From a virus, in IMG/VR virus record IMGVR_UViG_3300020202_000150, positions 1 through 40,088 of that record: DNA of 40,088 nt; one strand, given 5' to 3'. Below, piece after piece: positions 1,031-36,901 of the stretch. Position 1 is the first letter of the stretch, and each line of letters starts with the position of its first letter. The notes under the pieces are model-generated. The model was not told the DNA's origin, searched no databases, and saw only the letters and a list, made by a program, of their open reading frames with translations. Position numbers and translations under genes: made by a program.

Positions 1031-2200
1031 ATGGCGTCACCCGCAGTGACTTACAACTTTACAAATGGAACGACCGCTGATGCGGATCAGGTAGACCAAA
1101 ACTTTACCGATATCATTAACGGGATCACTGACGGCACAAAAGATTTGTCTATCAGTGCTCTTACTTGCGCTGGCGCCGTTACACTAAACGGAAACGTTAC
1201 GTTAGGTAACGGAACACCTGACGATATTACGGTAACTGGATCACTTGCCTCAAGTATCCCAATCAAAACGACAAACTCATTTGATATTGGCTCTAGCACA
1301 TTGGGCTTAAGGTCAATCTACTTTGGCTCATCGGGCGGCGCGTTTTCAACACGGCTTATCGGCGGGGCAGCGGCATCAAGTTACACCATTACCTTGCCGG
1401 CAAGTGGTCCGAGTGTGACTGGTAAAACAATAATCTCTGATGCGTCGGCCGGACTATCATTTCGTTATGCTGAGAAATTCACTGGATCAAAAACGTCTGC
1501 ATATACCGCAACGGGTGATGAAACGATTATTCCTGTTGATACGTCTGGCGGCGCATTCACAGTCACACTACCGGCCGCTGCAAGCTATGCAGGAAAACAA
1601 CTTACCATTGTTAAGACATCAACCGATTTCAATGCCTGCACCATTGACGGAGATGGTTCCGAGACGATTAACGGATCGGCAACCACCTCTATCAATACGC
1701 AATACGAGTCACTCACTATCGCCTGTGATGGTTCTAACTGGTATATCCGCCAAAGGTATATCCCTTCAGAGTGGGCATCATATACGCCGACTATTTCAGG
1801 CTTTGGTACCGTTACGTCATTGGCGGCATTTTGGCGCAGGGAAGGCGATTCAGCACGCGTGAGATGTTATTTTGTCGCTGGTACTGTTGCAGCATCTGAC
1901 GCAAAAATCACGCTCCCAGGCGGAACATCGATTGATACCAATAAACTCACGACTGCTCAGTCTGCATATCTTGGTGTGTTCTTCTCAAACGTCACAACTA
2001 CAGGAACCGCATTTCCGGCAACAACTCGCGGTCCTTTCGTTATCACGACAAAAATTGGCGATACGGACGAGCTATTTTTCGCTGTCGCTGTTGATAAGGA
2101 TGACGTTGTGTTTAGACCTGATCAGGGCACAGTAGTCGGCACAACCAGTGCTTCAGTCGTGATTGAATTTAGCGTTCCGATCTCTGGCTGGAAAGGATGA
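1031..2200 (+). CDS. tail fibre / receptor-binding structural protein
   Basis: This is a 389-residue beta-rich protein. The N-terminal ~60 residues (SPAVTYNFTNGTTADADQVD, then NGN/LGNGT repeats) resemble the virion-attachment and repeat regions of phage fibres. The middle is Ser/Thr/Gly rich, with the TLPA pattern seen in fibre beta-helices. The last ~150 residues start with a W-x-SYTPT motif and contain ITLPGG, typical of C-terminal trimeric fibre domains in many phages. It follows the ejection-type genes and precedes lysis, the usual fibre slot in podoviruses. AAGGGG about 10 bases upstream acts as ribosome site. No enzymatic tailspike motif is visible. Its many Ser/Thr residues make it a conceivable target of the phage glycosyltransferase. 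Confidence 0.75.
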   Translation: MASPAVTYNFTNGTTADADQVDQNFTDIINGITDGTKDLSISALTCAGAVTLNGNVTLGNGTPDDITVTGSLASSIPIKTTNSFDIGSSTLGLRSIYFGSSGGAFSTRLIGGAAASSYTITLPASGPSVTGKTIISDASAGLSFRYAEKFTGSKTSAYTATGDETIIPVDTSGGAFTVTLPAAASYAGKQLTIVKTSTDFNACTIDGDGSETINGSATTSINTQYESLTIACDGSNWYIRQRYIPSEWASYTPTISGFGTVTSLAAFWRREGDSARVRCYFVAGTVAASDAKITLPGGTSIDTNKLTTAQSAYLGVFFSNVTTTGTAFPATTRGPFVITTKIGDTDELFFAVAVDKDDVVFRPDQGTVVGTTSASVVIEFSVPISGWKG

Positions 2201-4275: not shown

Positions 4276-4298
4276 GAATGCGTTGGAGGCGGATTTAT

Positions 4299-4508
4299 AT
4301 GCTGGTCTCAATTTTGTTTTTCCTTTTGGGTCTCTCTGTTTCACTTAACGTTTTTCTATTCATTAAATTCCGTAAGACCAAATTAGAACGACCAAAATCT
4401 CAGGATTTGAGGGAATTCCTAGGGGATTTAGCTCGCGGTAAAGCTGTTATTAAGATCGAGGTTCTTGATCCAAATGGATTATTTCATCACTCAATGAGGG
4501 GAATTTGA
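4299..4508 (+). CDS. small single-pass membrane protein, unknown
   Basis: This is a 69-residue protein with an N-terminal transmembrane helix (LVSILFFLLGLSVSLNVFLF), a basic stretch (KFRKTKLERPK) and a polar C-terminus ending near KAVIKIEVLDPNGLFHHS. ATG 4299 is preferred because GGAGG lies 10 bases before it; an in-frame ATG at 4278 has no ribosome site. It overlaps the next gene by one base (TGATG), so translation is probably coupled to the dehydratase. No family was recognised with confidence. Confidence 0.6.
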   Translation: MLVSILFFLLGLSVSLNVFLFIKFRKTKLERPKSQDLREFLGDLARGKAVIKIEVLDPNGLFHHSMRGI

Positions 4509-5359
4509 TGAAAGTATTTATTACGGGAATTACGGGTAGCCTTGGGACGGCGGTAACTAAGTATCTCTTAGAGCATTATCCAGATTGCCAAATTTACGGC
4601 TATTCAAGAGACGAATTAAGACAGCAAAAATTCATGAGAGATAAAAGAATCACTCTTACGCTTGGATGCATCCGGGATCGCGATAGACTCTTAGAGGCAA
4701 CGCGCGGAATGGACATTATATTTCATCTGGCGGCCGTGAAACACGTTGACCTTTTAGAGCTAAATCCAGAAGAGGCAGCAAGCGTAAACATCGACGGCAC
4801 AAGGAATGTTCTTTACGCGCAGAGAATGAACCGAATTCCGAGAGTTGTACTCTCATCAACGGATAAGGCTGTTTACCCTGTCAATGCCTACGGTGATTCT
4901 AAAGCAATGGCCGAAAAGCTTATTTTGAGAAACCCCAAAAATCTCGTTTTTCGCTGGGGGAACGTAATAGCGTCAAACGGTTCAGTGGTTCCGCAATTTG
5001 TTAAATCAATTAAAGATCATCAAACAGCATATGTGACTGACACAAATATGATTAGATTTTGGATTACCCTGAATGAAGCTGCGAAATTTATTGTAACCAA
5101 TAGTCTTGATCAGAACTCTTCAGGTCTTATCATTCCTGAAATGCGTGCCGCAAAAGTTGTTGATGTCGCGTTAGCGGTTGCTGCAATCCTTGGAGTTTCA
5201 ACCACCATTAAAACGACTGGACCAAGACCTGGCGAAAAACTGAGCGAATGTCTTAGGACTCAGTATGAAGGCGCTGAGATTCATGCGCACACGGTTCCGC
5301 AATTTTCAATGGATGAACTGATTCAAACTCTCACTCCTGTTGTGCAGGCAATCGCATGA
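4508..5359 (+). CDS. UDP-sugar 4,6-dehydratase, PseB/FlaA1-like
   Basis: This 283-residue SDR enzyme should convert UDP-GlcNAc to a 4-keto-6-deoxy sugar, the first step to pseudaminic or legionaminic acid. Seen motifs: Rossmann GITGSLG (7-13), AAVKHVDLLELNPEEA (75-90), STDKAVYP with the Asp119/Lys120 pair, YGDSK (Tyr128, Lys132), RWGNVIASNGSV (149-160), MIRFWITLNEA (181-191) and GPRPGEKLSE (238-247). All are hallmarks of the PseB/CapD soluble subfamily. It is slightly shorter than PseB (~330). ATG 4508 follows GAGGGG. It overlaps the next gene by 4 bp. Whether it also epimerises C5, as PseB does, cannot be read from the motifs. Confidence 0.88.
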   Translation: MKVFITGITGSLGTAVTKYLLEHYPDCQIYGYSRDELRQQKFMRDKRITLTLGCIRDRDRLLEATRGMDIIFHLAAVKHVDLLELNPEEAASVNIDGTRNVLYAQRMNRIPRVVLSSTDKAVYPVNAYGDSKAMAEKLILRNPKNLVFRWGNVIASNGSVVPQFVKSIKDHQTAYVTDTNMIRFWITLNEAAKFIVTNSLDQNSSGLIIPEMRAAKVVDVALAVAAILGVSTTIKTTGPRPGEKLSECLRTQYEGAEIHAHTVPQFSMDELIQTLTPVVQAIA

Positions 5360-5949
5360 TTTTAATTGTTGGGCACAAAGGCGTGATGGGCAGACGTTAC
5401 TCGTGTATCCTCAATTACCTGGGCAAAAAATGGATCGGCACGGATATTGATGGGCCAACGCAAGAATTTCAGTCAAAAGACATTAGCGGCATTATTATCG
5501 CAACTCCAACGGAAACTCATGCGGCACTCATTAAGGTTTATGCGGAATTCGGAAAACCAATTTTAGCCGAAAAACCAATTTGCAAAGATCTTAATCAGCT
5601 TAAAGAAGTACTTTATGCGGTTAAAGATATTCCGTTTGAAATGGTCTATCAATACAAGCAAATAGCACGTCTTGGCGATGGTCCGTCACATTACAATTAT
5701 TGGAACCACGGTAGAGACGGACTTCACTATGATTGCATTCAGATCATTGGTCTCGCTCGCGGGCCAGTTGAGTTAGCAGAGGATTCACCGATTTGGGATT
5801 GCAGGATTAATGGGGATTTTCTTTTCATTGAGCAAATGGATTTCGCCTATGTATCAATGATCAAGAATTGGCTCAAAAAGCCGGGGATGGATTTAAACGA
5901 AATTTACGCAATTCATGAAAAAGTCCATGACATGGTGAAATCCGCATGA
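5356..5949 (+). CDS. shortened Gfo/Idh/MocA-type NAD(P)-dependent oxidoreductase
   Basis: The 197-residue product starts with a Rossmann fold (GHKGVMGRR, 6-14), then IIIATPTETHAAL (46-58) and the family hallmark AEKPI (71-75), so it should oxidise or reduce a sugar with NAD(P). Family members are usually 300-400 residues; much of the C-terminal substrate-binding sheet is reduced here to ~100 residues (YWNHGRDGLHYDC, then a helical end). Both ends overlap neighbours by 4 bp, so it is an intact gene and not a remnant. Such oxidoreductases occur beside SpsF and aminotransferase genes in flagellar sugar clusters. Substrate unknown. Confidence 0.72.
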   Translation: MILIVGHKGVMGRRYSCILNYLGKKWIGTDIDGPTQEFQSKDISGIIIATPTETHAALIKVYAEFGKPILAEKPICKDLNQLKEVLYAVKDIPFEMVYQYKQIARLGDGPSHYNYWNHGRDGLHYDCIQIIGLARGPVELAEDSPIWDCRINGDFLFIEQMDFAYVSMIKNWLKKPGMDLNEIYAIHEKVHDMVKSA

Positions 5950-6671
5950 GCGCACCGATTAGGGTCTTAATTGGCATTCAAGCAAGGAGCACGTCAAAGC
6001 GCTTTCCAGGAAAATGCTTTGCAATGCTAGGTGAGAAGACTGTTTTAGATCACGTTATCGACAATGCAATTGAATGCTGTACATACTTAAATAACTTCAA
6101 GGAAAAGAATGGTTTCGTCGCATCCGCAGCACTTTGCATTCCGTATAATGATCCCATTAAAGAGCGATATCAGAACAAGATTAACATCATTGTTGAAGGT
6201 CCAGAGGATGATGTTTTAGAGCGGTATAAAATACTAGTTTCTAAAATGGACCCGGATTATCTCGTCCGCGTAACTGGCGATTGTTGTTTACTTCCAGGAT
6301 ATGTCATCACAAAGCATATCAATGTCGCTGTTAAAAATACCTATGATTACGTCTCAAATGTTGATGAGCGCATTCGCACAACGCTCGATGGGTTTGACGT
6401 TGAGGTCATTTCGCGGAGGCTCTTTGATTACACTGCAGAGTGCGCAAAAATCCAACACGACAGAGAACACGTCACAACATGGATGAGGCGCTGTACACCG
6501 ACCTGGGCGCGCGTTGGGCACGTTGTGGGTTATCTTGATTTTGCAGACGTGAAACTCTCAGTTGATACGCCAGAGGATTTAGAAAGAGTTAGAAAGCACT
6601 ACGACAAAATTCAATTAGCAATTAAAGTCGCGGAGGATTTGCATGGTAAACGCAACGTCCACCGACTTTAG
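5946..6671 (+). CDS. SpsF-type cytidylyltransferase (CMP-sugar synthesis)
   Basis: This 241-residue enzyme probably activates a nonulosonic acid with CTP. The nucleotide-binding motif is IQARSTSKRFPGK (11-23), close to the IQARxxSTRLPGK of SpsF/NeuA/KdsB relatives. Further family motifs are GPEDDVLERY (85-94), VRVTGDC (107-113), DGFDVEV (148-154), DREHVT (172-177) and VDTPEDL (206-212). These favour the SpsF branch over NeuA/PseF. It overlaps the oxidoreductase by 4 bp and the aminotransferase by 29 bp. In this operon it would do the job of PseF; the acceptor sugar is inferred. Confidence 0.82.
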   Translation: MSAPIRVLIGIQARSTSKRFPGKCFAMLGEKTVLDHVIDNAIECCTYLNNFKEKNGFVASAALCIPYNDPIKERYQNKINIIVEGPEDDVLERYKILVSKMDPDYLVRVTGDCCLLPGYVITKHINVAVKNTYDYVSNVDERIRTTLDGFDVEVISRRLFDYTAECAKIQHDREHVTTWMRRCTPTWARVGHVVGYLDFADVKLSVDTPEDLERVRKHYDKIQLAIKVAEDLHGKRNVHRL

Positions 6672-7857
6672 TTGGTACCGTAGGGCGCAAGACTGTATCG
6701 CTCAAGGCGCACTGACAAACTCTAAACGCCCTGAGTGTTTTGTTCTGGGAGCATATCCGACACACCTAAAAAGAGGCGAGGGCTGTCATGTATACGATAC
6801 GACCGGTAAGCGTTACATTGATTATATTACTGGGCTTGGCAGCAATTTATTTGGCTACGGCAATTCTTATATTCATGAGAGTGTCGCAAATGCTTTCAAG
6901 ACTGGCTCGGCGTTATCGCTATCGTCGGATCTTGAGATCTATTTTGCAGAAAAAGTAAAAGAGTTTTTCCCCTGGATTACTCATATTAAGATTCTAAAGA
7001 CCGGAACTGAGTCAACTCTTGCGGCATTAAGAATCGCTAGAGCATATACCGGCCGGAATTTGATATTATCTGAAGGGTATCACGGCTGGAGTGATGAATT
7101 CACCTCACTTAATCCGCCGGCTCTTGGTGTTCCGGGAACTTACACCATTGAAAAGCTTCATAAAGAATCGCGTCTTGATAAAGCTGCGGCCGTAATTGTT
7201 GAGCCTGTCATGACTGATGACGGGCCAGAAAGAATCGCTTGGCTCCGTGATCTAAGACGAAGATGTAACGCATCTGGTGCCCTGCTAATCTTTGATGAAG
7301 TAATAACCGGACTGCGTTACTTAGGTCACGGGGTCTCTAATTGCCATGGCATTGAACCAGATTTGATTTGTCTTGGGAAAGCCATTGGCGGCGGAATGCC
7401 GTTAGCCGTGGTTGGCGGTAAGACGCACATTATGAACTGCGGTGAGTATTTTGTGTCGAGCACGTTTGCGGGTGAGCGAGTCTCATTGGCAGCAGGACTT
7501 AAGGCGCTCGAATTACTTCAAACGAATCATAAATATTCAATTAATGATCTCTGGCGTGAAGGGACGAAATTTCTTTTAGGCTTTAATCGAATGTGGCCAG
7601 AGATGATTAGGATTGAAGGGTATGCCACGCGCGGAACGTTTAAGGGAAGTGATACGGCGAAAGCTCTTCTTTGGCAAGAGGCTTGTAAGGCGGGCATTCT
7701 ATTCGGCTCCTCGTGGTTCTTTAATTTCTCTCATCCAGAGCAAACTGAAATTGTTTTAAACACTTTAAGCGACATTATGGTCCGCATTAAACATGGCAAT
7801 GTGAAACTCGAAGGGACATTACCGACGAGTCCGTTTGCCGCAAAAGTAAGGGGATAA
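6643..7857 (+). CDS. class-III PLP aminotransferase, glutamate-1-semialdehyde mutase-like
   Basis: This 404-residue PLP enzyme resembles HemL. GTES (121-124), GYHGWSD (145-151), IVEPV (185-189), FDEV (217-220) and LGKAIGGGMPLA (244-255) with the PLP-binding Lys246 are all present. HemL itself is unlikely because the gene lies in a sugar operon of a phage. It would add the amino group to the 4-keto sugar or a later intermediate, replacing the DegT-fold PseC of the classical pathway. ATG 6643 follows GGAGGA and starts inside the end of the cytidylyltransferase gene. Confidence 0.85.
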   Translation: MVNATSTDFSWYRRAQDCIAQGALTNSKRPECFVLGAYPTHLKRGEGCHVYDTTGKRYIDYITGLGSNLFGYGNSYIHESVANAFKTGSALSLSSDLEIYFAEKVKEFFPWITHIKILKTGTESTLAALRIARAYTGRNLILSEGYHGWSDEFTSLNPPALGVPGTYTIEKLHKESRLDKAAAVIVEPVMTDDGPERIAWLRDLRRRCNASGALLIFDEVITGLRYLGHGVSNCHGIEPDLICLGKAIGGGMPLAVVGGKTHIMNCGEYFVSSTFAGERVSLAAGLKALELLQTNHKYSINDLWREGTKFLLGFNRMWPEMIRIEGYATRGTFKGSDTAKALLWQEACKAGILFGSSWFFNFSHPEQTEIVLNTLSDIMVRIKHGNVKLEGTLPTSPFAAKVRG

Positions 7858-7859
7858 TT

Positions 7860-8063
7860 ATGGATAGTGAAAAAACATTTGATGAACTCGTTCAATATTT
7901 CAAAGACAAACGCACCAACATTATTAAATTGGATAGTGAACTCAGAAAAGAGGCTGAACTTTATCGCGCGCAAATAAAGGCAGCCTTTGGCATTACCGAC
8001 AATGAACAGGCCAACGTGCTTGATACCATCATTGCTATTCGAAAAGTCTTGGGAATGAAATGA
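7860..8063 (+). CDS. small helical protein in sugar operon, unknown
   Basis: The 67-residue product is predicted all-helical and charged (FDELVQYFKDKRTNIIK, LRKEAELYRAQIK, VLDTIIAIRKVLGMK). Its size recalls acyl carrier proteins, but the D-S-L attachment motif is absent. It begins 2 bp after the aminotransferase stop and overlaps the acetyltransferase by 4 bp, so it is translated with the pathway. An accessory subunit is possible. Confidence 0.6.
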   Translation: MDSEKTFDELVQYFKDKRTNIIKLDSELRKEAELYRAQIKAAFGITDNEQANVLDTIIAIRKVLGMK

Positions 8064-8578
8064 TCAGACTTCGCGGGCTGATTGCTGATGATCTTGGTTA
8101 CATGTTTGAATGGCGAAATGATCCGAGGATTAATCATTGGACACGGCAAAACGATGTGATTTCATCAGCATCTCATAAAGCTTGGTTTGAACGCCAAGCG
8201 CATGACCCTAAGATTAAGATGTATGCAATTGACTCTGGCTGTGTCGGTAAACACTGGCAGGCGCCTATTTTGGGAGTTTGCGGTCTCACCGATATTGATC
8301 TAATCAACCGTAGGGCTGAGTTTTCTCTCTATATTGGCCCTGAATATCATGGGAACGGTTATGGCGAAGCGGCCCTTAGGCTCTTACTCGAAAAAGGATT
8401 TAAAACTTATGGTCTCAACTCCATTTGGGGTGAGACGTTTGACGGCAATCCCGCGGCCAAGATGTTTGAAAAGATCGGGTTTAAAAAAGAGGGAACACGT
8501 CGTGCGTTTTATTTCCGTGACGGAAAGTTCATCGATGCACATTTATATTCCATTCTAAATTCGGAGTTTCAATCATGA
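8060..8578 (+). CDS. PseH-like GNAT N-acetyltransferase
   Basis: This 172-residue RimJ/RimL-fold acetyltransferase should acetylate the amino group of the UDP-sugar, as PseH does in pseudaminic acid synthesis. Seen: EWRNDPRINHW (17-27), AWFERQ (41-46), GVCGLTDIDLINRRAEFSLY (72-91), the acetyl-CoA loop YHGNGYGEAALR (96-107), GLNSIWGE (118-125) and FEKIGFKKEGTRR (136-148). The LTDID..NRRAEF pattern and full length match PseH-type enzymes. ATGA overlap with the preceding gene; last enzyme of the operon. Confidence 0.84.
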   Translation: MIRLRGLIADDLGYMFEWRNDPRINHWTRQNDVISSASHKAWFERQAHDPKIKMYAIDSGCVGKHWQAPILGVCGLTDIDLINRRAEFSLYIGPEYHGNGYGEAALRLLLEKGFKTYGLNSIWGETFDGNPAAKMFEKIGFKKEGTRRAFYFRDGKFIDAHLYSILNSEFQS

Positions 8579-9849: not shown

Positions 9850-10095
9850 ATGCAGACCGCCAGAGCATTGGACCAACATGAAATAATGATGATCAATTGT
9901 AGCTATGTCCTTAGAGCCTGTAATGGGCATATTGCCAAAGCAATGGTGAAATTAAGGCTTAATGATAACTCATCAATGAAACTCTGGAAGGCATTTTCTT
10001 CGGCACTTTCGGAATATAACGACGAAAAGGCATTAGAAATAAAGGAACACGGCAGTCAGGTTTTGGATTTTGATTCGCCTAAATCGGATGACTGA
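9850..10095 (+). CDS. small unknown protein in lysogeny-control region
   Basis: The 81-residue product is helical (HEIMMINCSYVLRACNGHIA, LWKAFSSALSEYNDEKALE) with an acidic end. A strong AGGAGG lies at the right distance before the ATG. A possible promoter in the 136-bp gap before it is TTGCAT at 9767 with TATAGA at 9788 (15 bp apart). The gene converges with the repressor, and the 3' ends overlap by 40 bp. It could be an establishment (CII-like) factor by position, but no HTH is obvious. Confidence 0.55.
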   Translation: MQTARALDQHEIMMINCSYVLRACNGHIAKAMVKLRLNDNSSMKLWKAFSSALSEYNDEKALEIKEHGSQVLDFDSPKSDD

Positions 10096-10460
10096 CTTCT
10101 CATGGCGATAACGATGGTATACGCAAGCTTAAACTCATCTTTTGATGCCGTTGCGAAAGCCTCTAAGAACTCCTTAGGGGCGCGTTTACCAATCATTTGG
10201 GCCCAGATTTCGCGGTCTGTGTTGAGTTTAACGACTTCACCAGTGGCGTCGCCTTCAAAGTATTCCGGCGGCTTTCCCAGCACTCTTAATAGCTCATTAT
10301 ATAAGTCTGAACCAGGAAGAGCGACGCCGTTAAGCCAGCGGCTTATGTTGCTTTCGTTCGTTCCAATAAGCTCGGCAAGCTCTTTATTAGAACGAATGCC
10401 AGCATCCAGCATCGCTTCCTTGAGACGCTGTCTAAATAGGGCTCGAATTGCTGATTTCAC
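10056..10460 (-). CDS. CI-like phage repressor, XRE family
   Basis: This 134-residue protein is read away from the early genes. The N-terminal HTH spans about residues 10-62 (SNKELAELIGTNESNISRWL is the turn and recognition helix). The rest is short and helical and lacks the Ala-Gly cleavage site and Ser/Lys dyad of S24 LexA-like repressors, so RecA-driven self-cleavage is unlikely; induction must use another route such as an antirepressor. It faces the Cro-like gene at 10579 across 118 bp with TGCGCAA sites, the classical switch layout. Confidence 0.82.
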   Translation of the reverse strand: MKSAIRALFRQRLKEAMLDAGIRSNKELAELIGTNESNISRWLNGVALPGSDLYNELLRVLGKPPEYFEGDATGEVVKLNTDREIWAQMIGKRAPKEFLEAFATASKDEFKLAYTIVIAMRSQSSDLGESKSKT

Positions 10461-12879: not shown

Positions 12880-13071
12880 ATGGGTGAGAAAAAAATCGAG
12901 GGCTTCATAGATATTGAAGAAGCGTCCAAGTTTTTGGGCGGTATGCCGACAAATACAATCAGATGGAAAGTCAGTCTTGGTGAAATCAGGGCTTATAAAG
13001 TTGGTCGCAAACAAATATTTGACCCAAATGAATTAAGAGAATACGTCAAGCGTCGAAAAATCCAAGTATGA
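12880..13071 (+). CDS. excisionase-like winged-helix protein
   Basis: The 63-residue product carries a MerR/HTH_17-type domain as in many phage excisionases: FIDIEEASKFLGGMPTNTIR, then WKVSLGEIRAYKVGRKQIFD, then EYVKRRK. ATG 12880 is used because GGGGGG precedes it by about 5 bases; ATG 12868 has no ribosome site. It overlaps the integrase gene by 4 bp, matching an Int/Xis pair in one transcript. Confidence 0.75.
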   Translation: MGEKKIEGFIDIEEASKFLGGMPTNTIRWKVSLGEIRAYKVGRKQIFDPNELREYVKRRKIQV

Positions 13072-14108
13072 AGCTGATTAGTATACCAGGGAAGGCAAAC
13101 GCGAACTTATATCGACATCCTACAACAGGGATCATTTATGTTCGCATGTATAAAGAGGGAAAGGGCCGGCTTGAGAAATCAACCGGCACCGATAAACTCT
13201 CTGACGCGCGAATTATTGCCGACGATCTTAAATTCAAATTCCTTGGCAAAAAAAATCCAAGGCAAGGTCAAAGTCTCTGCGGTGAGCTTTTTGAGGAGTT
13301 TATCGAGCAAAAAAGTATTAAGTCTCAAGGGACAATTAACAGCATAAGAGCAAGCTGGAAACACCTTAAGCCTTATATCGAGGGAATGCTTCCGGAAGAG
13401 ATTAATGAGGTGTGGTGGGAAAAAATCTATATCCCTAAAAAAAGAATAGAAACACACAAAAACAGAAAATTCTTTAATGATCATAAATGGCTCAGAATGT
13501 TTTTGCTTTCACTACAAAGGCAGGGAGTGATTGAGCGGCGCCCGAATCTCGTAAACCCTGACCCAGAGCGCGATGCGGGAAGAGTTTATTCAGATAAAGA
13601 GATTGAGAGACTATTGGCGCACGCCGATGGCGATTTAAAATTACAAATAAAAATGGCTTACACGATGGGAATGCGGTGGGGTGAAATCCTTGGTTTAACT
13701 TTCGACCGCATCGATGTTCTACGTGGAACAATCAAGCTCAGAGCGGAAGACACGAAGATTCGTAAACAAAGAATATTTGCAATTTCAGATTCTGTCAGGG
13801 ATGAGCTGGTGGAGCGCAAAAAAATATCTGAAAGCCTTTACTTGTTTCCGATGAAAGATGATCCGACTCGGCCACGCAAAAGAGACGGCATGAAAACGCA
13901 GTGGGAAAATTGTAAAAAGAATGCCGGGGTGACTGGCCGGTTTCATTTTTTAAGGCACACGTTTTTGACCAAGGCGTTTAAGTCTCCGGGCGCCAACCCC
14001 GCACTGATTTGTCACTATGCGGGGCTATCGCTTGAGGAGGCTCAGAAGACGTATTTGCATTTTACGGTTGAGGATACAAGGGCAGTGGCCAGCATTGTGG
14101 AGCTATAG
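13068..14108 (+). CDS. tyrosine recombinase integrase
   Basis: This 346-residue enzyme integrates and excises the prophage. Residues 1-60 form a beta-rich arm-binding domain (LYRHPTTGIIYVRMYKEGKG), 65-165 a SAM-like core-binding domain, and 170-346 the catalytic domain. The catalytic set is visible: Arg203 (MGMRWGEILGL), Lys230 or Lys233, His293-x2-Arg296 (HFLRHTF), His316 (ICHYAGLS) and nucleophile Tyr329 (KTYLHF). A tRNA-derived attP lies 72 bp downstream, as expected for tRNA-targeting integrases. Confidence 0.95.
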   Translation: MKLISIPGKANANLYRHPTTGIIYVRMYKEGKGRLEKSTGTDKLSDARIIADDLKFKFLGKKNPRQGQSLCGELFEEFIEQKSIKSQGTINSIRASWKHLKPYIEGMLPEEINEVWWEKIYIPKKRIETHKNRKFFNDHKWLRMFLLSLQRQGVIERRPNLVNPDPERDAGRVYSDKEIERLLAHADGDLKLQIKMAYTMGMRWGEILGLTFDRIDVLRGTIKLRAEDTKIRKQRIFAISDSVRDELVERKKISESLYLFPMKDDPTRPRKRDGMKTQWENCKKNAGVTGRFHFLRHTFLTKAFKSPGANPALICHYAGLSLEEAQKTYLHFTVEDTRAVASIVEL

Positions 14109-20935: not shown

Positions 20936-21170
20936 CGTTTTGCCATTTGCGCGCCTCATTAAAAGCCCTGATCAATTCGATCAAATTCCAAATGGCGCTA
21001 GAATTTCGTTTAATAAGGAATTTAGCGACAGGGATAGGCGTTGGATGAGACTTCATAATGAAGAGTACCTAATCTGTGATGACGGTGGCGGCATGTGCGC
21101 TTACGATGCTTTTGCGTCCGAAGGTCAATTTTGGGTGAGAGATTTCCTTGTAGATATGGCGGCAGAGTGA
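20928..21170 (+). CDS. unknown 80-residue protein
   Basis: The ATG at 20928 overlaps the end of the previous gene by 8 bp. The product (SNVLPFARLIKSPDQFDQIP, LHNEEYLICDDGGGMCAYDA) looks like a small mixed alpha/beta protein. Its stop overlaps the synthase GTG (GTGA), so translation of the synthase may depend on it. Confidence 0.58.
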   Translation: MSNVLPFARLIKSPDQFDQIPNGARISFNKEFSDRDRRWMRLHNEEYLICDDGGGMCAYDAFASEGQFWVRDFLVDMAAE

Positions 21171-22135
21171 AATTTAACGAAGGTGTTAAGATCATAGCTG
21201 AGGTAGGTTCTAACTGGCATTCACTACAAGACTGTCTCGATAGCATTCGCATGGCAAAGCTTGCTGGTGCCGATGCGGTGAAGTTTCAGTTGTATAACCA
21301 TAAAGCACTCTATGGTATTGCCGGAATTCCGGATGAGAATGTTGTTGATAATTGGTTGCCTGGAACATTACCAGTAGACTGGCTTCCGCGATTAAAAGAA
21401 TGCGCTGACCAAGTTGGGATTGAATTCCTATGCTCAGCATTCAGTCCGGAATTGCTTGATGTCGTAAACCCGTTTGTCGAAACGCATAAGCTTGCATCAG
21501 CGGAAATGGAACATGTTGGGATGCTTGATAAGCTGATTGAATATGACAAGCCAGTCATCGTCTCAACTGGCGGACACACGATTGATGAAGTGAAGCGTGT
21601 TGTTGAATACTTAAATGGCCTTGATATTTGTGTGATGTATTGCGTGAGTGAATATCCTGCGCGATTTATTCAATACTCAAGAATTTTAGCTTTAAAAGAG
21701 CTTGAGAAACCACTGGGATTTTCTGACCATACATTAGATATGGGTTTTATCGGACGCCATTTGAGCATTCGGAACGTTAATGTTTTTGAGAAACACGTTA
21801 ATTTTGTGAATGTTAAGGACACGCCGGACGCGCCGCACTCATTGTCGTTTGATGAGTTTAAATTATATGTGAAATCTCTGCATTGGAAATTGAGAGACGA
21901 TGACGTGCAATTAGAAACCGCCATGCGTGAAAAACATAACCGCAGACTCATTGCCACCACGACAATTAAAGCTGGTGAGACATTACAATTAGGCGTCAAT
22001 TACGGGATTTATCGCTCACTTAAGCCCGCGCCGGCCGCGCTATCACCATGGAAAGCAACACTCATCGACGGTAAGCGCGCTGCGATTGATATTCAAGCTG
22101 GTGACGGAATAGCTGGCGATTCTATCACAGATTAA
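21167..22135 (+). CDS. nonulosonate synthase, NeuB/PseI/LegI family
   Basis: This 322-residue enzyme condenses phosphoenolpyruvate with a six-carbon amino sugar to make a nine-carbon nonulosonic acid. Seen: IIAEVGSNW (9-17), AGADAVKFQ (33-41), FLCSAFSPE (87-95), HKLASAEM (107-114), IVSTGGHT (131-138), GFSDHT (184-189) and FEKHVNF (207-213). His188 and His210 match the metal ligands of NeuB. A SAF domain follows (RRLIATTTIKAGETL, 259-273) but its end is divergent. GTG 21167 overlaps the previous TGA and keeps the family N-terminus. It lies 13 kb from the other sugar genes. Confidence 0.9.
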   Translation: MKFNEGVKIIAEVGSNWHSLQDCLDSIRMAKLAGADAVKFQLYNHKALYGIAGIPDENVVDNWLPGTLPVDWLPRLKECADQVGIEFLCSAFSPELLDVVNPFVETHKLASAEMEHVGMLDKLIEYDKPVIVSTGGHTIDEVKRVVEYLNGLDICVMYCVSEYPARFIQYSRILALKELEKPLGFSDHTLDMGFIGRHLSIRNVNVFEKHVNFVNVKDTPDAPHSLSFDEFKLYVKSLHWKLRDDDVQLETAMREKHNRRLIATTTIKAGETLQLGVNYGIYRSLKPAPAALSPWKATLIDGKRAAIDIQAGDGIAGDSITD

Positions 22136-22217: not shown

Positions 22218-22976
22218 ATGGCGGAAATGAAATGCGCACTCATCGTGCCAGATTGCCACGTACCTTATCACCACAAAAAAGCATACAAGCTTATGCTGAC
22301 AGTGGCGAAAGACATTGATGTGGACGCAATCTATCTCTTAGGTGACTACGCTGATTTCTATGCAGTCAATGGTCATGGGCCAAAGCATCCAAAACTTCCG
22401 CAAATGCTCGTGGATGAAGTCAATGCGGTAAACGCAGGACTTGATGAGTTAGACTTTCTTTTTCCAGATGCCAAGAAAACATTTATTCAAGGCAATCATG
22501 AATATCGCTTGGAGCGCTACCTTCAGAACAGAGCGCCTGAGTTATTCGGGTTGATCGATTGCCAAACATTATTCAAACTTAATTCTCGCCCTGGATGGTC
22601 ATGGGTGAAGTACGGGCCGAATCAACGCACTCGGGTGCTTAACTCGAAACTATACGCGCGGCATGAGCCGCTTGGGAATTCAGCCAAACTTACCGCATCC
22701 AGGGCTCTTTGTTCTTTAGTTTATGGACATATTCATCGCATTGAAGAATCGCATATGGTTGGTATTGATCACACCAATCATGTGTCTTTCAGTGTCGGCT
22801 GGCTTGGCGATAGACGTAAAGATGAAATCTATAATTACATAAAAGGCACTTATCAATGGCAGTTGGGATTTGGTCTTGTTTGGGTTCATCCGAAGACAGG
22901 ATACTTCTACCATCACAAAATCCATATTCTCGACAATTTAACATGTATGGTGAATGGTAAGAGGTATGCCGCATGA
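22218..22976 (+). CDS. calcineurin-like metallophosphoesterase
   Basis: This 252-residue enzyme has the full metal-site set: PDCHVPYHH (Asp12, His14), LLGDYADF (Asp43), QGNHEYRLER (Asn93, His94), ARHE (His149) and YGHIHR (His171, His173). It should cleave phosphoesters, perhaps nucleic acid or nucleotides. Such genes often sit just before terL in phages. ATG 22218 or 22227 may be used; neither has a clear ribosome site. Overlaps the next gene by 4 bp. Confidence 0.85.
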   Translation: MAEMKCALIVPDCHVPYHHKKAYKLMLTVAKDIDVDAIYLLGDYADFYAVNGHGPKHPKLPQMLVDEVNAVNAGLDELDFLFPDAKKTFIQGNHEYRLERYLQNRAPELFGLIDCQTLFKLNSRPGWSWVKYGPNQRTRVLNSKLYARHEPLGNSAKLTASRALCSLVYGHIHRIEESHMVGIDHTNHVSFSVGWLGDRRKDEIYNYIKGTYQWQLGFGLVWVHPKTGYFYHHKIHILDNLTCMVNGKRYAA

Positions 22977-23567: not shown

Positions 23568-24875
23568 ATGGCTGTCTACAAAATGCATTCGCTCAAACAA
23601 GAGCAAGCAATATTCTCTGAGAACCGAATTACAGTTGTTGGGACTGGTACACAGTGGGGAAAAACGACAGTCGGTGCTTTGCGTATGAAGCACAAACTAT
23701 TCACATTCAAGAATAAAGACGACGCCTTTATTATCACGGCTCCAGATTACAAAACGATGCAGCAATCAACACTTAAGGCTTTCTTACCGCTCATGAAAGG
23801 CTGGGGTGTTTACCGGAAAGCTGATGCCACGTTTGAAATGCATAAAGGCGGCATTGTTTATTTCAGAACGGAAACCCATCCTGACTCTATTGTTGGTATC
23901 ACAAATGTTCGTCACATTTGGGGTGACGAGGCTGGCAAATACTCGCTTTATTTCTGGGAAAACATGCAGGCTCGGGCTGATTTCTTGGGTGCGAGTATTG
24001 ATTTAACAACATCACCTTATTCGCTTAATTGGGTCTGGCGCGATCTCATTAAACCTTGGCGTGCCGGCAAACGCCCTGACGTAAACGTGATACAAGCTGC
24101 CTCATGGGAATCCCCATATCACTCACTACATGATCCCAAAAAGAGAGATGAAAAGCGCTCAACCATGGATGCGCGTAGGTTTCAGATGCTCTATGGCGGT
24201 GAGTTTGGCCAGATGGCTGGACTTGTTTATGACTGCTTTGATGAGCATGAAAACTTATGTGAGCCGTTTCAATTGCCGTCGGGCACAAGATACGTTGCAG
24301 GCGTTGATTGGGGTTTTACTGACCCATTTGTTTTAAAGGTGCGTGCGATTACACCAAGCGGGCATCATTACGCGATTAGTGAGTTTTATAAAACTGGGAT
24401 GACTCTTAGTAAAATTCTAGATGTCGCAAAACAAAAAAAGCAAATCTACGGGATTGAGATGTTTTACTGCGATCCCAGTCAACCTGGCCACATTGAAGAG
24501 TTTAACCAAAATGGTTTGCCTGCCGTGGGGGCTGATAACGACATACGGCGCGGCATTGATCTCCATTATGAACTCATAAAATCCCGTAGATTCAAAATAT
24601 TTAAAGGCTCATCGCCTTACACTATGGATGAATTAGAGACTTATCACTATCCAGAGCCTGAGGATTTGGGTCCAGATGATGATTCAAAAGAGCAACTCCC
24701 TGTTGGCCAAGGGGATCACGCTCTTGACGTAGATCGGTATTTAACTATAATGACTGTGAGATCCGAGCTTAAAGCTGTTCCAAAAGCGCCAGCTGAAATT
24801 AAATTCCCACACAATGAAACCTATGAACAACGCCGCAAAAGACTCATGTCTAATCGGCGTCATGAGGATTATTGA
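23568..24875 (+). CDS. terL: terminase large subunit
   Basis: This 435-residue motor packages DNA. ATPase: Walker A GTGTQWGKTT (25-34, Lys32), IITAPDY (55-61), Walker B HIWGDEAG (116-123, Asp120/Glu121), LTTSPY. RNase-H nuclease: VAGVDWGFTDP (243-253, Asp247), MFYCDPSQP (298-306, Asp302), QGDHALDVDRY (381-391). The length is typical for podo/sipho TerL. No strong ribosome site lies before ATG 23568; ATG 23583 is a possible alternative. Overlaps the methyltransferase by 4 bp. Confidence 0.95.
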   Translation: MAVYKMHSLKQEQAIFSENRITVVGTGTQWGKTTVGALRMKHKLFTFKNKDDAFIITAPDYKTMQQSTLKAFLPLMKGWGVYRKADATFEMHKGGIVYFRTETHPDSIVGITNVRHIWGDEAGKYSLYFWENMQARADFLGASIDLTTSPYSLNWVWRDLIKPWRAGKRPDVNVIQAASWESPYHSLHDPKKRDEKRSTMDARRFQMLYGGEFGQMAGLVYDCFDEHENLCEPFQLPSGTRYVAGVDWGFTDPFVLKVRAITPSGHHYAISEFYKTGMTLSKILDVAKQKKQIYGIEMFYCDPSQPGHIEEFNQNGLPAVGADNDIRRGIDLHYELIKSRRFKIFKGSSPYTMDELETYHYPEPEDLGPDDDSKEQLPVGQGDHALDVDRYLTIMTVRSELKAVPKAPAEIKFPHNETYEQRRKRLMSNRRHEDY

Positions 24876-29621: not shown

Positions 29622-30545
29622 ATGGCTTTAACTTATAATCAAATCAGTGCAATCACTGAGAAAAAATTTATTCCGAAAATGGTTGATAACATCTTTGATA
29701 GCAATCCGTTGCTTCAGAGATTTAAAAAAGGTGATGTCTACACGTCTGTTGACGGTGGTACAGAGATCATCCAGCCCTTGAACTACGCTCAGAACTCTTC
29801 TGGCGGTTGGTATTCAGGTGCAGAGACCCTTAGTACGCAGGATAACGAAGTTCTGACTGCCGCCAGCTATAGTTGGAAACAGCATTACGACAATATTTCA
29901 ATCTTGCGTTCAGATGAACTTAAGAACTCTGGCGGTCCCGCTATTCTTAAATTCGTTCAGCAAAAGATTAAAATTGCCGAGATGTCTGGCCAAGACCGCA
30001 TGGGAACTGGCCTCTACAATGCAGGCAGTGATTCAAAAGCAATTGCTGGTCTTCGCTCAATCGTTTCTACCAGCAATACTGTTGGCGGTATCGCTCAAGG
30101 AACATATTCTTGGTGGCAGGCTCAAGTTGATAGCACAACTACAACTTTGAGCATTGCTGCAATGAATAGCCGTTTCTCTGCTTGCCGTATCGGTGCAGAT
30201 AAACCCACCGTTATCACTTGTGGTTCCACTTTGTGGGATCTTTACTATAATCTTTTGCAACCGCAACAGCGTTTCCAGGATGCTGAAACTGCTAAGGGCG
30301 GTTTCTCTGGCCTGATGTTCAACGGCTGCCCGGTAATTGACGACTCACACGCACCCGCATCGCATATGTTCTTCTTAAACGAGAAGTATCTGCATCTTTA
30401 CTACCATAAAGATGAAAACTTCCGTTTTGAGCCGTTCCAAAAGCCGGTTAACCAGAACGCGAAAATTGCGAAAATTTACTGGATGGGTGCATTTGGAACA
30501 TCAAACGCACGTATGCAGGGCGCATTAACTGCTATCACCGCTTAA
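29622..30545 (+). CDS. major capsid protein
   Basis: This 307-residue protein directly follows the scaffold gene with a strong GGAGG. It begins ALTYNQISAITEKKFIPKMV, then NPLLQRFKKGD, EIIQPLNYAQNSSGGWYSG and a long helical spine. The middle has PTVITCGSTLWDLYYNLLQP, and the end has FNGCPVIDDSHAP and LHLYYHKDENFRFEPFQKP, as in HK97-fold capsids of podo- and siphoviruses. No protease gene is seen, so maturation is probably scaffold-driven without cleavage. Confidence 0.9.
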   Translation: MALTYNQISAITEKKFIPKMVDNIFDSNPLLQRFKKGDVYTSVDGGTEIIQPLNYAQNSSGGWYSGAETLSTQDNEVLTAASYSWKQHYDNISILRSDELKNSGGPAILKFVQQKIKIAEMSGQDRMGTGLYNAGSDSKAIAGLRSIVSTSNTVGGIAQGTYSWWQAQVDSTTTTLSIAAMNSRFSACRIGADKPTVITCGSTLWDLYYNLLQPQQRFQDAETAKGGFSGLMFNGCPVIDDSHAPASHMFFLNEKYLHLYYHKDENFRFEPFQKPVNQNAKIAKIYWMGAFGTSNARMQGALTAITA

Positions 30546-30565: not shown

Positions 30566-31045
30566 ATGGGATTTCAAGGTGTAGCTCCGGTAGTATTTGA
30601 AAGCGTATCGCAGGTCACTGCTACTCCCTCCGTTGAACTTGGCACACGCCGAGTTGTTGACGGTGAAGAGTATGTGTACTGCTACAACGCAGGTGGCGGG
30701 CAGGCGAGTGTTAATTTGGGCGTGAAGTTGATCACTGGCGCTTCAGGTTACTCGATTGCTCAAACGTCTATCACTGACGTATTCAATCCGCTTGTTGGTG
30801 TTGTGAAACATTCCACAATGGCAGCTGGCGATTATGGATGGGTCATGGTTAAGGGTTTTGCAACTGTGAAAGTTGTCTCTGCAATGACGGCAGATTATCG
30901 AATGATCGCCCTCGGTGCAGCTGGCTCTTTCATTGAAGCAAGCGGAACCACGACGTTTGGAACTGCAACAGTTGTTGGTCATGCTTTGAGCGCCAACACT
31001 GGTTCTGGCGGATCTGTTTACGCTTTCATCAAGGGTCTTGCATAA
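30566..31045 (+). CDS. capsid decoration-type protein
   Basis: The 159-residue product is beta-rich (RRVVDGEEYVYCYNAGGG, GDYGWVMVKGFATVKVVSAM) and rich in Gly, Ser, Thr and Val. It sits right after the capsid gene with a strong GAGGGGGG site. The GWVMVKG pattern resembles small head-stabilising proteins. The terminator just after it would keep capsid and this protein at high level. Ser/Thr content makes it a candidate glycosylation target. Confidence 0.7.
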   Translation: MGFQGVAPVVFESVSQVTATPSVELGTRRVVDGEEYVYCYNAGGGQASVNLGVKLITGASGYSIAQTSITDVFNPLVGVVKHSTMAAGDYGWVMVKGFATVKVVSAMTADYRMIALGAAGSFIEASGTTTFGTATVVGHALSANTGSGGSVYAFIKGLA

Positions 31046-32163: not shown

Positions 32164-32430
32164 ATGGCTTTCACAATCGGACGTGAGAACACGGTCTTAG
32201 GGAATAAAAAAGTAGCACTTCTGTCGTGCTCTGTTGATTCAGCTTCAGGAAACATCGACACAGGTCTTGCTGTTGTTGATCACGTTTCTATTTGTCCTGT
32301 TAGCATGGCAACGGCTGCGATTGTTTTAAAGAAAAACGTGGGCTCTGGAGCCACCGCACGCGCCGGGATCATCAATATCAATGGCGCTGCAAGCGGTGAC
32401 GTTTTCCTTTTGACTGTCTACGGCAGGTAA
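32164..32430 (+). CDS. small beta-rich virion protein
   Basis: The 88-residue product (VALLSCSVDSASGNIDTGLA, AAIVLKKNVGSGATARAG) is Ser/Thr/Ala/Gly-rich with alternating strands, like a small head-surface or spike protein. AAAGGAG gives a strong ribosome site. It lies directly after the Maf-like gene, so it could be a substrate. Confidence 0.6.
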   Translation: MAFTIGRENTVLGNKKVALLSCSVDSASGNIDTGLAVVDHVSICPVSMATAAIVLKKNVGSGATARAGIININGAASGDVFLLTVYGR

Positions 32431-34370: not shown

Positions 34371-35015
34371 ATGACCCCAACGCAAATAGAAGACCAGTTT
34401 CGACTTCAATATAACGCTGTCAATGACACTTACTTTACTCAAGCGATGGTCTTTAACTGGATCTACTTCGCAGAGTATGAATTAGCGACAAAAGCTCTTT
34501 GTGTTCAGGCCACTCACACAACAACAACCGTGGCCTCGCAAACAGCCTATACATATCCAACTAATACAATCGCCATTAAGCGCGTTGAATACCAAGGTGT
34601 ACCGCTTAAAAAGGTGTCTTTCCGAGAAAACGATGCGGTGACTTTAACAAATCCCACAACCGTCGTAACGGGGCGCCCACTTTATTATTCTCAGTGGGGA
34701 GGCGAGATTAGACTTCAACCAACTCCTGTCTCAGCGAATACGTTGAGTTATTACACCTATAAAGAGCCAAGCGTTGTAACGGCTAACACAACGCTAGAGG
34801 TGCCTCAGAAATTTCATCCGCATATTGTCAATTACTGCTTAGAGCAAGCCTACGCAAAAGATCAAAATTTGCAGATGGCATCCTATTACGGCGCAAAATG
34901 GCAGGCCAATGTTCAAGAGGTTATGGACTGGCAAGCTAAAGAAAAACGCACTGACGGATTTGCTGTTGTTCAGAGCGAAGACCAACTTGAGAGCACAGTT
35001 CTGGGGGCCGTGTGA
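34371..35015 (+). CDS. head-to-tail adaptor protein
   Basis: The 214-residue product resembles podovirus adaptors (P22 gp4 / T7 tail tubular A type): helical start with FNWIYFAEYELATKAL (~28-43), strands VASQTAYTYPTNTIAIKRVE and PLKKVSF, WGGEIRLQPTP, then a helical end (HPHIVNYCLEQAYAKDQNLQ). It lies directly before the tail-hub gene and overlaps it by 4 bp. Confidence 0.75.
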   Translation: MTPTQIEDQFRLQYNAVNDTYFTQAMVFNWIYFAEYELATKALCVQATHTTTTVASQTAYTYPTNTIAIKRVEYQGVPLKKVSFRENDAVTLTNPTTVVTGRPLYYSQWGGEIRLQPTPVSANTLSYYTYKEPSVVTANTTLEVPQKFHPHIVNYCLEQAYAKDQNLQMASYYGAKWQANVQEVMDWQAKEKRTDGFAVVQSEDQLESTVLGAV

Positions 35016-36901
35016 GATTTGGTAGGAAAGTTTATCCTGCCGGCGGACATATTGTTTTTGACGGCGGGAAAAATTCCAAGTTTGAAAGGGCATTGATCCC
35101 TGATAACGAGTCCCCAGATTGCGCTAACGTCATATTTGACGCTGGCTCAGTAGAAACCCGCCAAGGATATTCAAAGCTCAATACCGCTTCAGTTGGCTCA
35201 TTTGCCTGCGATGGTCTTTACACTCGTCATGATTCTGATGGCAGTGAGACCATGTGCGCTTTCTACGGCGGACACTTCTTTACCGTTAACGGTACCTCAA
35301 TGGTAACGGTCCCAAGCGCTCAGAGTGTTTTCACGGCTGGTGTAAGAATGGCAGCGTGCGAGCAAGAGGATTATTTATTTATGGGGAACGGGGGGCAGAT
35401 TCCCTATAAATGGAACGGGGCTGAGTTCACCCGGCACGGTGTTTATCCGCCAACGACCACGTCAACGGTTGCCTCACAAGGAACGGGAGTTTTAACAGGG
35501 GATTTCACTTATAAAGTGACCACCGTGAATTCAAATTTAGTTGAATCAGATGTTGGTCCGGTGACTGCCACATTTACGGCAGCAAGTGCGACTTTAAGGG
35601 TCTCATCAATCCCCACGTTTGCTGCAAGCTACGGTGTAAACGCTAGACGCCTTTATAGGTCTGATGCTGGAACTTGGAAGAGAGTTACAACAATCTCAGA
35701 TAATACGACCACAACGTTTGACGATAACGTGACCACGGCAGCTTTAGGGGTTGCTGCTCCTACTGATAATGGTGTTCCGCCGAAATACAATGCCTGTATT
35801 TATCATCAAAATAGACTCTTCGTTAATGACCCGGCAAATCCTAACCTTGTTTGGTATTCAGAGCTTGGAAACCCCTACACATTCGCCTCAACTAACTTTC
35901 GAAACATTGGTGATTCTAGTGGCGATATCGTTAGGGGCTTTGGCGTTTACGATAACTCTGTCGTGGTTTACTGCGATAAGTCCGTGTGGCTTATTTATAT
36001 GCCAGAAACGGATGACTCAACTTGGCTTGATATCAGAGTGCAAACGCCGTTTGGCTCAAAAAGCCAGTTTGCTCCGTTTAATTTCAATGACAAGCAAATG
36101 TTTGCAGCAATGCAAAATGATAAGTTTGTTGGTTTTGCCGCAATCAAAGGAAACGCAGGCGCCCCGTCGGCAACTCTTCTTACAACTCTAGGCGTAGGCT
36201 CTGAGCTTCAGAGCGATCGGGTTGAGCCCGATATGTTTAACGTTTCTGAGTCACTTGTTGGCCAGATATCGGCCATTGTTTATAAGAATAAAGCCTGGAT
36301 CACTGTTCCTTATGGTTCAAATGCTACAGCGAATAACCGCGTTTACCATTTTGATTTTTCAATCTCAAATCTCTCTAAAAAACAAGAGGGCTCTTGGGTC
36401 CCGTTTACGGGGATGTCAGCCACTCAGTTTACCATTTGGGATGGGAATTTATATTTTGGCTCATCTACTGCAAATGGCTACATCTACCAAGCAGAAAACG
36501 GGCTTTATAGTGACGATGGTGCCGCAATTGATTCTTACTACTGGACCAAGGAATTTGCAGGCCAGCCAGGGGATGAGCATCTTGAAAAAGACTTCCGTTA
36601 TGCTAACATCTTGATAGATAACTCAGGCTCATATTACATGAACCTGACTTACCGGGTTGACTCAGATAGCGGAATTGGAACTACAAACCAGATTAACCTC
36701 GATCCAGGCGGCTCCCAGTGGGGCACCATGGAGTGGGGAGAAAACTGGGGCGGTGGTTTAGATCAAGATGAAGACCGTGTCTACCTAGGAACTTCGCGCG
36801 GGCAGCGCATTCAATTTAAATTCTCAAACCAAAATACTGTAAACCAGAAGTTCAAAGTCCACTGGATGAACTTCGCATATAATATCAAGGGGTTTAGGTA
36901 A
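35012..36901 (+). CDS. DNA-stabilisation / tail-hub protein (P22 gp10-like)
   Basis: The 629-residue product opens with a typical segment (FDGGKNSKFERALIPDNESP, 15-34, then VETRQGY) and consists of repeated WD-like strands (FMGNGGQIPYKWNG, GVNARRLYRSDAGTWKRV, YHQNRLFVNDPANPNLVWYS, VYDNSVVVYCDKSVWLIYM), a probable beta-propeller as in podovirus nozzle or needle-hub proteins. GTG start overlaps the adaptor stop. It should close the tail after packaging. Confidence 0.78.
   Translation: MRFGRKVYPAGGHIVFDGGKNSKFERALIPDNESPDCANVIFDAGSVETRQGYSKLNTASVGSFACDGLYTRHDSDGSETMCAFYGGHFFTVNGTSMVTVPSAQSVFTAGVRMAACEQEDYLFMGNGGQIPYKWNGAEFTRHGVYPPTTTSTVASQGTGVLTGDFTYKVTTVNSNLVESDVGPVTATFTAASATLRVSSIPTFAASYGVNARRLYRSDAGTWKRVTTISDNTTTTFDDNVTTAALGVAAPTDNGVPPKYNACIYHQNRLFVNDPANPNLVWYSELGNPYTFASTNFRNIGDSSGDIVRGFGVYDNSVVVYCDKSVWLIYMPETDDSTWLDIRVQTPFGSKSQFAPFNFNDKQMFAAMQNDKFVGFAAIKGNAGAPSATLLTTLGVGSELQSDRVEPDMFNVSESLVGQISAIVYKNKAWITVPYGSNATANNRVYHFDFSISNLSKKQEGSWVPFTGMSATQFTIWDGNLYFGSSTANGYIYQAENGLYSDDGAAIDSYYWTKEFAGQPGDEHLEKDFRYANILIDNSGSYYMNLTYRVDSDSGIGTTNQINLDPGGSQWGTMEWGENWGGGLDQDEDRVYLGTSRGQRIQFKFSNQNTVNQKFKVHWMNFAYNIKGFR

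Follow-up and report, generated by a model that had tools for sequence, protein, structure and literature searches.

The virus record IMGVR_UViG_3300020202_000150 from IMG/VR, whose entire 40,088 nt form the stretch analysed here (the window), harbours a cassette of sugar-biosynthesis genes at positions 4,505-8,578, a NeuB-family nonulosonate synthase gene at a distant site and, in its capsid operon, a gene for a predicted Maf-type nonulosonate transferase. Together, these genes point to a phage that probably makes a nonulosonate activated with cytidine monophosphate (CMP) and, with a transferase of its own, O-links it to a protein of the virion, probably one on the capsid. This interpretation is carried by gene identities recognised by both profile and fold, intact catalytic motifs, lineage-wide conservation, purifying selection and the co-inheritance of the pathway with the transferase.

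All enzyme genes named in the initial annotation, which had described five overlapping sugar genes and a separate NeuB-type synthase at 21167, are present at their places (Table 1), as confirmed by Pfam and NCBIfam family matches. Start and stop codons within the cassette overlap by 4 bp at most junctions, which suggests translational coupling, and one previously unlisted open reading frame (ORF) of 67 aa precedes the last gene. The motifs, described as intact, are so, and the catalytic ones are also invariant across relatives. The dehydratase, starting at a TTG (4505) or alternatively at an ATG (4508), scores 215 bits with PF02719 (Pfam cut-off 20.2), matches 4j2o and 2gn4 in the Protein Data Bank (PDB) and carries the TDK and YxxxK catalytic motifs, whose residues T119-D120-K121, Y129 and K133 are invariant among relatives. 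The Gfo/Idh/MocA-type oxidoreductase keeps an EKP motif (E72-K73-P74) that is invariant in five relatives, and its profile matches inositol 2-dehydrogenase 4hkt; the classical C-terminal domain was not recognised. The SpsF-type protein, with cytidylyltransferase 6oew as PDB match, has an N-terminal nucleotide-binding signature, IxxQARxxSxRxPxK, that is invariant among relatives, as are the pyridoxal phosphate (PLP) lysine K246 and D218 of the class-III aminotransferase, whose PDB matches are glutamate-1-semialdehyde aminomutases. For the GNAT acetyltransferase, PseH is the best model (79.3 bits vs 49.1 for SpeG), and all six GNATs tested match it; the acetylation step is uncertain because a profile search of the PDB ranked SpeG above PseH. 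Since the gene order is kept in relatives diverged to 30-58% amino acid identity and the ratio of non-synonymous to synonymous substitution rates (dN/dS) is low, chance ORFs can be ruled out.

Two small ORFs accompany these genes. The 67-aa ORF was rejected as a conserved cassette partner, its counterparts being variable or absent. The 76-aa ORF at the head of the cassette has homologues at the same position in several relatives, with similar ORFs in G038 and G053, and it stays at the cassette head even where the cassette has relocated. Single-span membrane ORFs of this kind (window 4278-4508, L170:11073-11396, L264:7933-8148) share a similar C-terminal tail, e.g. ...VLDPNGLFHHSMRG and ...VNPDHVFIRSPK.

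The synthase gene has a GTG start at 21167, in a GTGA start/stop overlap with the preceding ORF, and its product lies far above the PF03102 cut-off of 22.1 bits. The residues of its phosphoenolpyruvate (PEP) and metal site (K39, Q41, K108, H188, E208 and H210) are invariant in 15 phage NeuBs, and NeuB/PseI are the main family matches in 15 of 15 lineage members tested. A lineage profile scored 203 bits against PseI 8h2c, 169 against SpsE and 131 against SiaC, with DAHP synthase far lower at 26, and the enzyme is therefore placed within the nonulosonate family, nearest PseI, a placement made by profile scores against known enzymes and not by a full phylogenetic tree. Asked by profile whether the synthase or the acetyltransferase falls outside the nonulosonate enzymes, neither does (NeuB/PseI and PseH being the best models). 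In the window, the synthase gene sits just upstream of the terminase gene, and it adjoins terL in L010 and L034 too. Several lineage NeuBs (248-266 aa; L038, L039, L043, L044) are without the C-terminal antifreeze-like domain kept in the window protein, and in G001 a TAA stands ahead of this region. A metallophosphoesterase (22218-22976), considered as an enzyme that could remove uridine diphosphate (UDP) or phosphate, was rejected: no homologue occurs in the DNA examined around the NeuB genes of relatives, and it belongs to a PHROG of general occurrence in phages.

The predicted transferase gene, not mentioned in the initial annotation, comes immediately after the genes for the major capsid and capsid-decoration proteins. 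Its only NCBIfam match, a weak one, is the flagellin modification protein PseD/Maf. An AlphaFold2 model built from 22 lineage sequences (pLDDT 92.6, pTM 0.90) finds Magnetospirillum Maf 5mu5 as its best match (Foldseek E 1e-11; VIA Z 22.7, rmsd 3.0 Å over 242 residues), and later fold matches include SteA (Z 10.5) and the sialyltransferases ST8SiaIII, which uses CMP-sialic acid (10.1), and CstII (9.6). In Maf, PF01973 corresponds to the central domain, which is Cst-II-like, and Maf enzymes O-glycosylate Ser/Thr residues of flagellin with nonulosonic acids (PMC11339370). The gene is present in 55 of the 55 contigs that have the decoration gene and at least 1.3 kb beyond it, directly downstream of that gene in the tabulated contigs, and in all 28 records of at least 30 kb. 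For the decoration-like protein, a candidate acceptor, the top Foldseek PDB matches come from phages: capsid decoration, cement, head-fibre-base or capsid-shell chains. Just 3′ of the transferase gene, a variable part of the virion operon encodes a protein with an SO2946-like C-terminal domain (PF22237; 32435-33280), swapped for other small beta-rich proteins in relatives.

The gene set had initially been taken for a rare oddity of a single phage; it is instead a trait of a whole lineage, dozens of IMG/VR contigs from many samples, with GC contents of 37-67%, having the cassette behind the tail gene. Searching IMG/VR with the aminotransferase as query and then as profile yielded 17 close relatives, in which the order is tail gene, dehydratase, Gfo/Idh, SpsF, aminotransferase and GNAT, with the dehydratase or Gfo/Idh gene sometimes lost; NeuB occurs in 16 of them, always apart from the cassette, the exception being a 15.8-kb fragment. 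Further members were found from two other entry points, the structural protein at 35012-36901 and the Maf-type gene. Throughout the 28 records of at least 30 kb the aminotransferase is recognisable (degenerate in G053, interrupted in G005 and G034, with an in-frame TAA in G030), and 25 have NeuB, which is missing in G038, G040 and G053. Because 13 of the 14 such records not found via the aminotransferase have a non-degenerate copy of it, and 11 have NeuB, the association between pathway and lineage is not mere search bias. Even in the diverged G038, where the whole cassette has relocated upstream of the terminase gene, its genes are still together. HNH or homing-endonuclease-like ORFs lie between SpsF and the aminotransferase in one contig (L002:1450-1914) and inside the aminotransferase gene in another (L006:10383-10826), so selfish elements do target the cassette. 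Excluded from the lineage were contigs L023-L033, whose aminotransferases show 28-34% identity: they have no Maf-type gene and were taken for clusters of other viruses or of bacterial type.

Outside IMG/VR, no member of the lineage was found among the 50,697 records of INPHARED, and scans of GTDB genome contigs with the aminotransferase and structural-protein profiles gave pattern matches and no confirmed relative; a NeuB single-protein scan of viral contigs gave no match. The INPHARED matches to the class-III aminotransferase were mostly ordinary hemL/argD-type genes in records resembling bacterial DNA, and the sole NeuB match was a Moritella contig; both were discarded. No nonulosonate genes neighbour the closest plasmid aminotransferases, on haloarchaeal plasmids. 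The rarity of sugar genes in small phages and the lack of a convincing INPHARED match could suggest that a single phage took up cellular DNA recently, or that such DNA was joined to it by an assembly error. The chance of this is negligible, the relatives refuting it: dozens of independent contigs, drawn from many samples, carry this cassette at the same position, the window is a circular and probably complete genome and no relative emerged from the GTDB pattern scan.

Selection and descent tie the pathway to the transferase. Pairwise dN/dS values indicate purifying selection: they are mostly 0.03-0.33 in the pathway genes and about 0.02-0.08 in the Maf-type gene, which resembles the structural genes in this respect. 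In Mantel tests, the distances of the Maf-type protein correlate with those of the aminotransferase, SpsF, NeuB, dehydratase, Gfo/Idh, GNAT and a backbone gene (r 0.60-0.77, p 0.001 each; 0.64-0.77 for the aminotransferase, SpsF, NeuB and the backbone gene), those of the aminotransferase with SpsF (r 0.86) and NeuB (r 0.77; p 0.001 each) and those of NeuB with SpsF (r 0.68). Given these correlations, the pathway and transferase have mostly descended together with the phage backbone; the Mantel and gene-order data reflect shared ancestry and are not independent trials.

From these identities we infer an order of reactions leading to a CMP-nonulosonate of the pseudaminic or legionaminic type, the exact sugar, like the acceptor and the glycan on virions, being part of the same proposal. 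The dehydratase would convert UDP-GlcNAc to a 4-keto-6-deoxy-HexNAc, to which the class-III aminotransferase would add an amino group at C4, and the GNAT would acetylate the resulting C4-amino sugar. After removal of UDP by a further enzyme of host or phage, NeuB would condense the sugar with PEP and the SpsF-type enzyme would load CMP; the Gfo/Idh protein may contribute an additional oxidation/reduction or an epimerisation. The Maf-type transferase, expressed with the capsid genes, would then move the sugar from CMP to Ser/Thr of a virion protein, the likeliest acceptors being the decoration protein encoded next to it, the capsid protein or one of the small proteins whose genes follow that of the transferase. 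DNA hypermodification was dropped as a purpose of the pathway, no DNA-sugar transferase having been found.

A number of points weigh against virion glycosylation by this route. The scores fall under the equivalog cut-offs for the dehydratase (202 bits vs 408 for PseB, TIGR03589), the GNAT (79.3 vs 93.1 for PseH, TIGR03585) and NeuB (120.7 vs 340 for PseI, TIGR03586). Among the scanned window proteins, which comprise all but a few small ORFs, no PseG/LegG-type UDP-sugar hydrolase was recognised, nor any DegT-type 4-aminotransferase (PseC). The sialic-acid-like pathway of the initial annotation thus holds as a set of nonulosonate-type families, and not as a pathway that reaches the PseB, PseH and PseI cut-offs or includes PseG/LegG and PseC. 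Two members without NeuB, G038 and G040, would be unable to make the sugar alone, and G053 has lost SpsF, Gfo/Idh, dehydratase, GNAT and NeuB, with the Maf-type gene retained alongside the small membrane ORF. Its aminotransferase (L264:8141-9091) is shortened, having lost the stretch that contains the YHGWSD motif and the PLP lysine, and this genome looks like a natural case of pathway decay; phages without NeuB or the pathway may rely on sugar supplied by the host, or their Maf-type gene may do something else besides. The transferase model aligns (residues 37-321) to residues 239-514 of Maf only, falling short of its three-domain architecture, and the archaeal pterin pyrophosphokinase HPPK comes second among the fold matches (Z 14.9). 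Lastly, the constant gene order is partly due to shared ancestry and is to that extent not independent evidence, and the acceptor site and the glycan are themselves inferred.

Some of these points would equally fit a cassette that makes another CMP- or UDP-linked amino sugar, or a different product altogether, with NeuB a relic or acting on another substrate: PseG is missing, a class-III enzyme stands in the place of PseC, the role of Gfo/Idh is unclear, the equivalog scores are low, and some members have lost NeuB (G038, G040) or its antifreeze-like region. We regard this as quite unlikely, as NeuB is kept at its distant site in 25 of the 28 long records, co-evolves with the aminotransferase and SpsF and has invariant catalytic residues, and the only recognised transferase has the fold of CMP-nonulosonate-using enzymes. 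It is also rather improbable that the PF01973 protein is a pyrophosphokinase-like or purely structural or assembly protein and no sugar transferase. Such a protein could explain the resemblance to HPPK/MptE, the presence of one only of the three Maf domains and its persistence in G053 despite pathway loss, but Maf is the better match in Z, in Foldseek E-value and in sequence profile (E 3.5e-5 vs 0.12 for HPPK), PseD/Maf is the only NCBIfam match, sialyltransferases that use CMP-sialic acid come after HPPK and SteA among the fold matches, and a pterin kinase would leave the nonulosonate pathway of the lineage unexplained.

An identical 127-base repeat at both ends of the record indicates that the genome is circularised and probably complete, at 39,961 bp. 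The initial description as a temperate podophage agrees with the integrase, the Cro/CI-type repressor, the podoviral capsid model and the lack of a tape-measure-sized gene in the window. The tail protein has a weak PF25692 depolymerase match, under its cut-off, and its N-terminal ~100 aa are 44-70% identical to relatives; the lineage-marker protein has a distant, weak match to the P22 gp10-like 'phage stabilization protein'. A DNA methyltransferase gene (24872-26062) sits between the terminase and portal genes.

Table 1. Features of the window discussed in the text
Feature	Position	Strand	Evidence and remarks
Tail fibre/spike	1031..2200	+	PHROG baseplate/tail match; N-terminus conserved across lineage
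Small membrane-anchored ORF, 76 aa, first of cassette	4278..4508	+	4-bp overlap with dehydratase start
PseB-like UDP-HexNAc 4,6-dehydratase (short-chain dehydrogenase/reductase, Polysacc_synt_2)	4505..5359	+	PF02719, 1.6e-63
Minimal Gfo/Idh/MocA-type oxidoreductase, 197 aa	5356..5949	+	PF01408, 33 bits, 8.9e-8, residues 39-90 only
SpsF/NeuA-type CMP-sugar cytidylyltransferase	5946..6671	+	PF02348, 1.3e-11, 45.2 bits vs cut-off 22.6
Class-III (glutamate-1-semialdehyde type) PLP aminotransferase	6643..7857	+	PF00202, 126 bits, 2e-36
67-aa ORF between aminotransferase and GNAT	7860..8063	+	Small variable ORFs here in about half of relatives
PseH-like GNAT N-acetyltransferase	8060..8578	+	PF13302, 3.3e-19
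CI/Cro-type HTH (helix-turn-helix) repressor	10056..10460	-	PF01381
Tyrosine integrase	13068..14108	+	PF00589, 62 bits; phrog_1
NeuB-family nonulosonate synthase with C-terminal antifreeze-like region	21167..22135	+	PF03102, 126 bits, 2e-36
Terminase large subunit	23568..24875	+	phrog_2
Podoviral major capsid protein	29622..30545	+	NF033394, 286.6 bits vs cut-off 80; phrog_9953
Capsid decoration/cement-like protein, candidate glycosylation acceptor	30566..31045	+	AlphaFold2 model, pLDDT 67 (medium confidence)
Predicted Maf-type nonulosonate transferase, central MAF_flag10 domain only, 342 aa	31121..32149	+	PF01973, 80.9 bits vs cut-off 34.6
88-aa protein, alternative acceptor candidate	32164..32430	+	Directly 3′ of Maf-type gene; same position in nearly all contigs
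Lineage-marker structural protein	35012..36901	+	Mostly 45-64% identity in relatives

The main rival explanation is seroconversion, in which the CMP-nonulosonate would serve transferases, of the host or of Maf type, that change the host's O-antigen, capsule, pilin or flagellin, to the benefit of the lysogen or to keep out other phages. In its favour, the genome encodes an integrase and a repressor, and the cassette is placed after the tail spike gene. In P22-like temperate phages, seroconversion genes follow the tail spike. Prophage enzymes altering host nonulosonates are, moreover, known from Acinetobacter baumannii, namely epaA/epaB (PMC12053666) and O-acetyltransferases (PMC6586298). We nevertheless consider seroconversion unlikely: the transferase gene is fixed between virion genes in the capsid operon, where late lytic expression is expected, its product is closer to Maf, a cytoplasmic enzyme that modifies proteins, than to polysaccharide transferases, and an integrase relative was seen in only one relative, the DNA examined often not covering that region. 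Glycosylation of the virion is favoured over modification of the host on the grounds of the capsid-operon position, the cytoplasmic chemistry of Maf-type enzymes and the co-inheritance of transferase and pathway.

If virion glycosylation is indeed the function, about 15% of a small phage genome is devoted to making an acidic nine-carbon sugar and attaching it to the phage's own particle, so that this sugar must matter greatly to the virus, e.g. for particle stability, diffusion or adhesion in the environment, shielding or host entry. Maf-type transferases would then act outside flagella, a compact single-domain nonulosonate transferase would become available to enzymology and glyco-engineering, and a nonulosonate route without PseC and PseG would be indicated. 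Virus-encoded virion glycosylation (PMC11256854) and phage editing of host nonulosonates (PMC12053666, PMC6586298) are known in outline. In the open-access literature, we found no description of phage-encoded nonulosonate virion glycosylation, nor of a phage lineage combining nonulosonate synthesis with a Maf-type transferase in the capsid operon. We tentatively propose, as a possibility somewhat short of an even chance, that this uncultured podovirus-like group makes its CMP-nonulosonate by a biochemically undescribed class-III-aminotransferase/Gfo-Idh route and sialylates its capsid with a single-domain Maf, which would be the first virus-encoded system of this kind in bacteria.

Among known systems, the closest to the transferase are the Maf/PseD flagellin transferases, including Magnetospirillum Maf 5mu5 and Clostridium botulinum CbMaf, which share PF01973, the same fold over 242 residues and a GSGPS motif, and whose genes are likewise found together with nonulosonate synthesis genes. 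Unlike these proteins, which have three domains (N-terminal Rossmann-like, central and C-terminal helical), the phage protein consists of the single central domain, and its gene belongs to a capsid operon instead of a flagellar island, with no phage-encoded flagellin as target. The pseudaminic and legionaminic acid pathways (PseBCHGIF, LegB-I; SpsE/SpsF) have in common with the phage set a 4,6-dehydratase, an N-acetyltransferase, a NeuB-family synthase and SpsF-type CMP transfer, whereas the phage uses a class-III and not a DegT aminotransferase, has no PseG/LegG hydrolase, adds a minimal Gfo/Idh protein and has its synthase gene at a distance from the cassette; in some members NeuB is without its C-terminal domain.

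In bacteria and other contigs, related class-III aminotransferases adjoin NeuB, SpsF and dehydratase genes, and such an enzyme is encoded beside nonulosonate genes in the Legionella Sg6 O-antigen cluster (PMC3694923) and the Aeromonas flagellin islands (PMC7874193). One run on the Methylomagnum ishizawai plasmid pRS11DPr1 (L176; 10056-15668) encodes a class-III aminotransferase, a short-chain dehydrogenase/reductase, an N-acetylneuraminate synthase family protein, an HAD-IIIA hydrolase and a split transketolase, and seems to be an undescribed-looking ulosonic acid cluster. These three bacterial examples combine the same enzyme families as the phage but serve bacterial surface or flagellar glycans and have other accompanying genes (PseC, AKR, transketolase, HAD). 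The A. baumannii prophage EpaA/EpaB and O-acetyltransferases resemble the present system in that nonulosonate chemistry is encoded by a phage; they edit a capsule sugar made by the host, whereas the phage described here encodes both the synthesis enzymes and a transferase, and nothing points to a target on the host surface. Mycobacteriophages with capsid-glycosylating transferases (e.g. Maravista, PMC11256854) and chloroviruses are alike in that viral enzymes are thought to glycosylate their own particle; they differ in that no nonulosonate or Maf-type transferase is described for them in the open-access literature searched.

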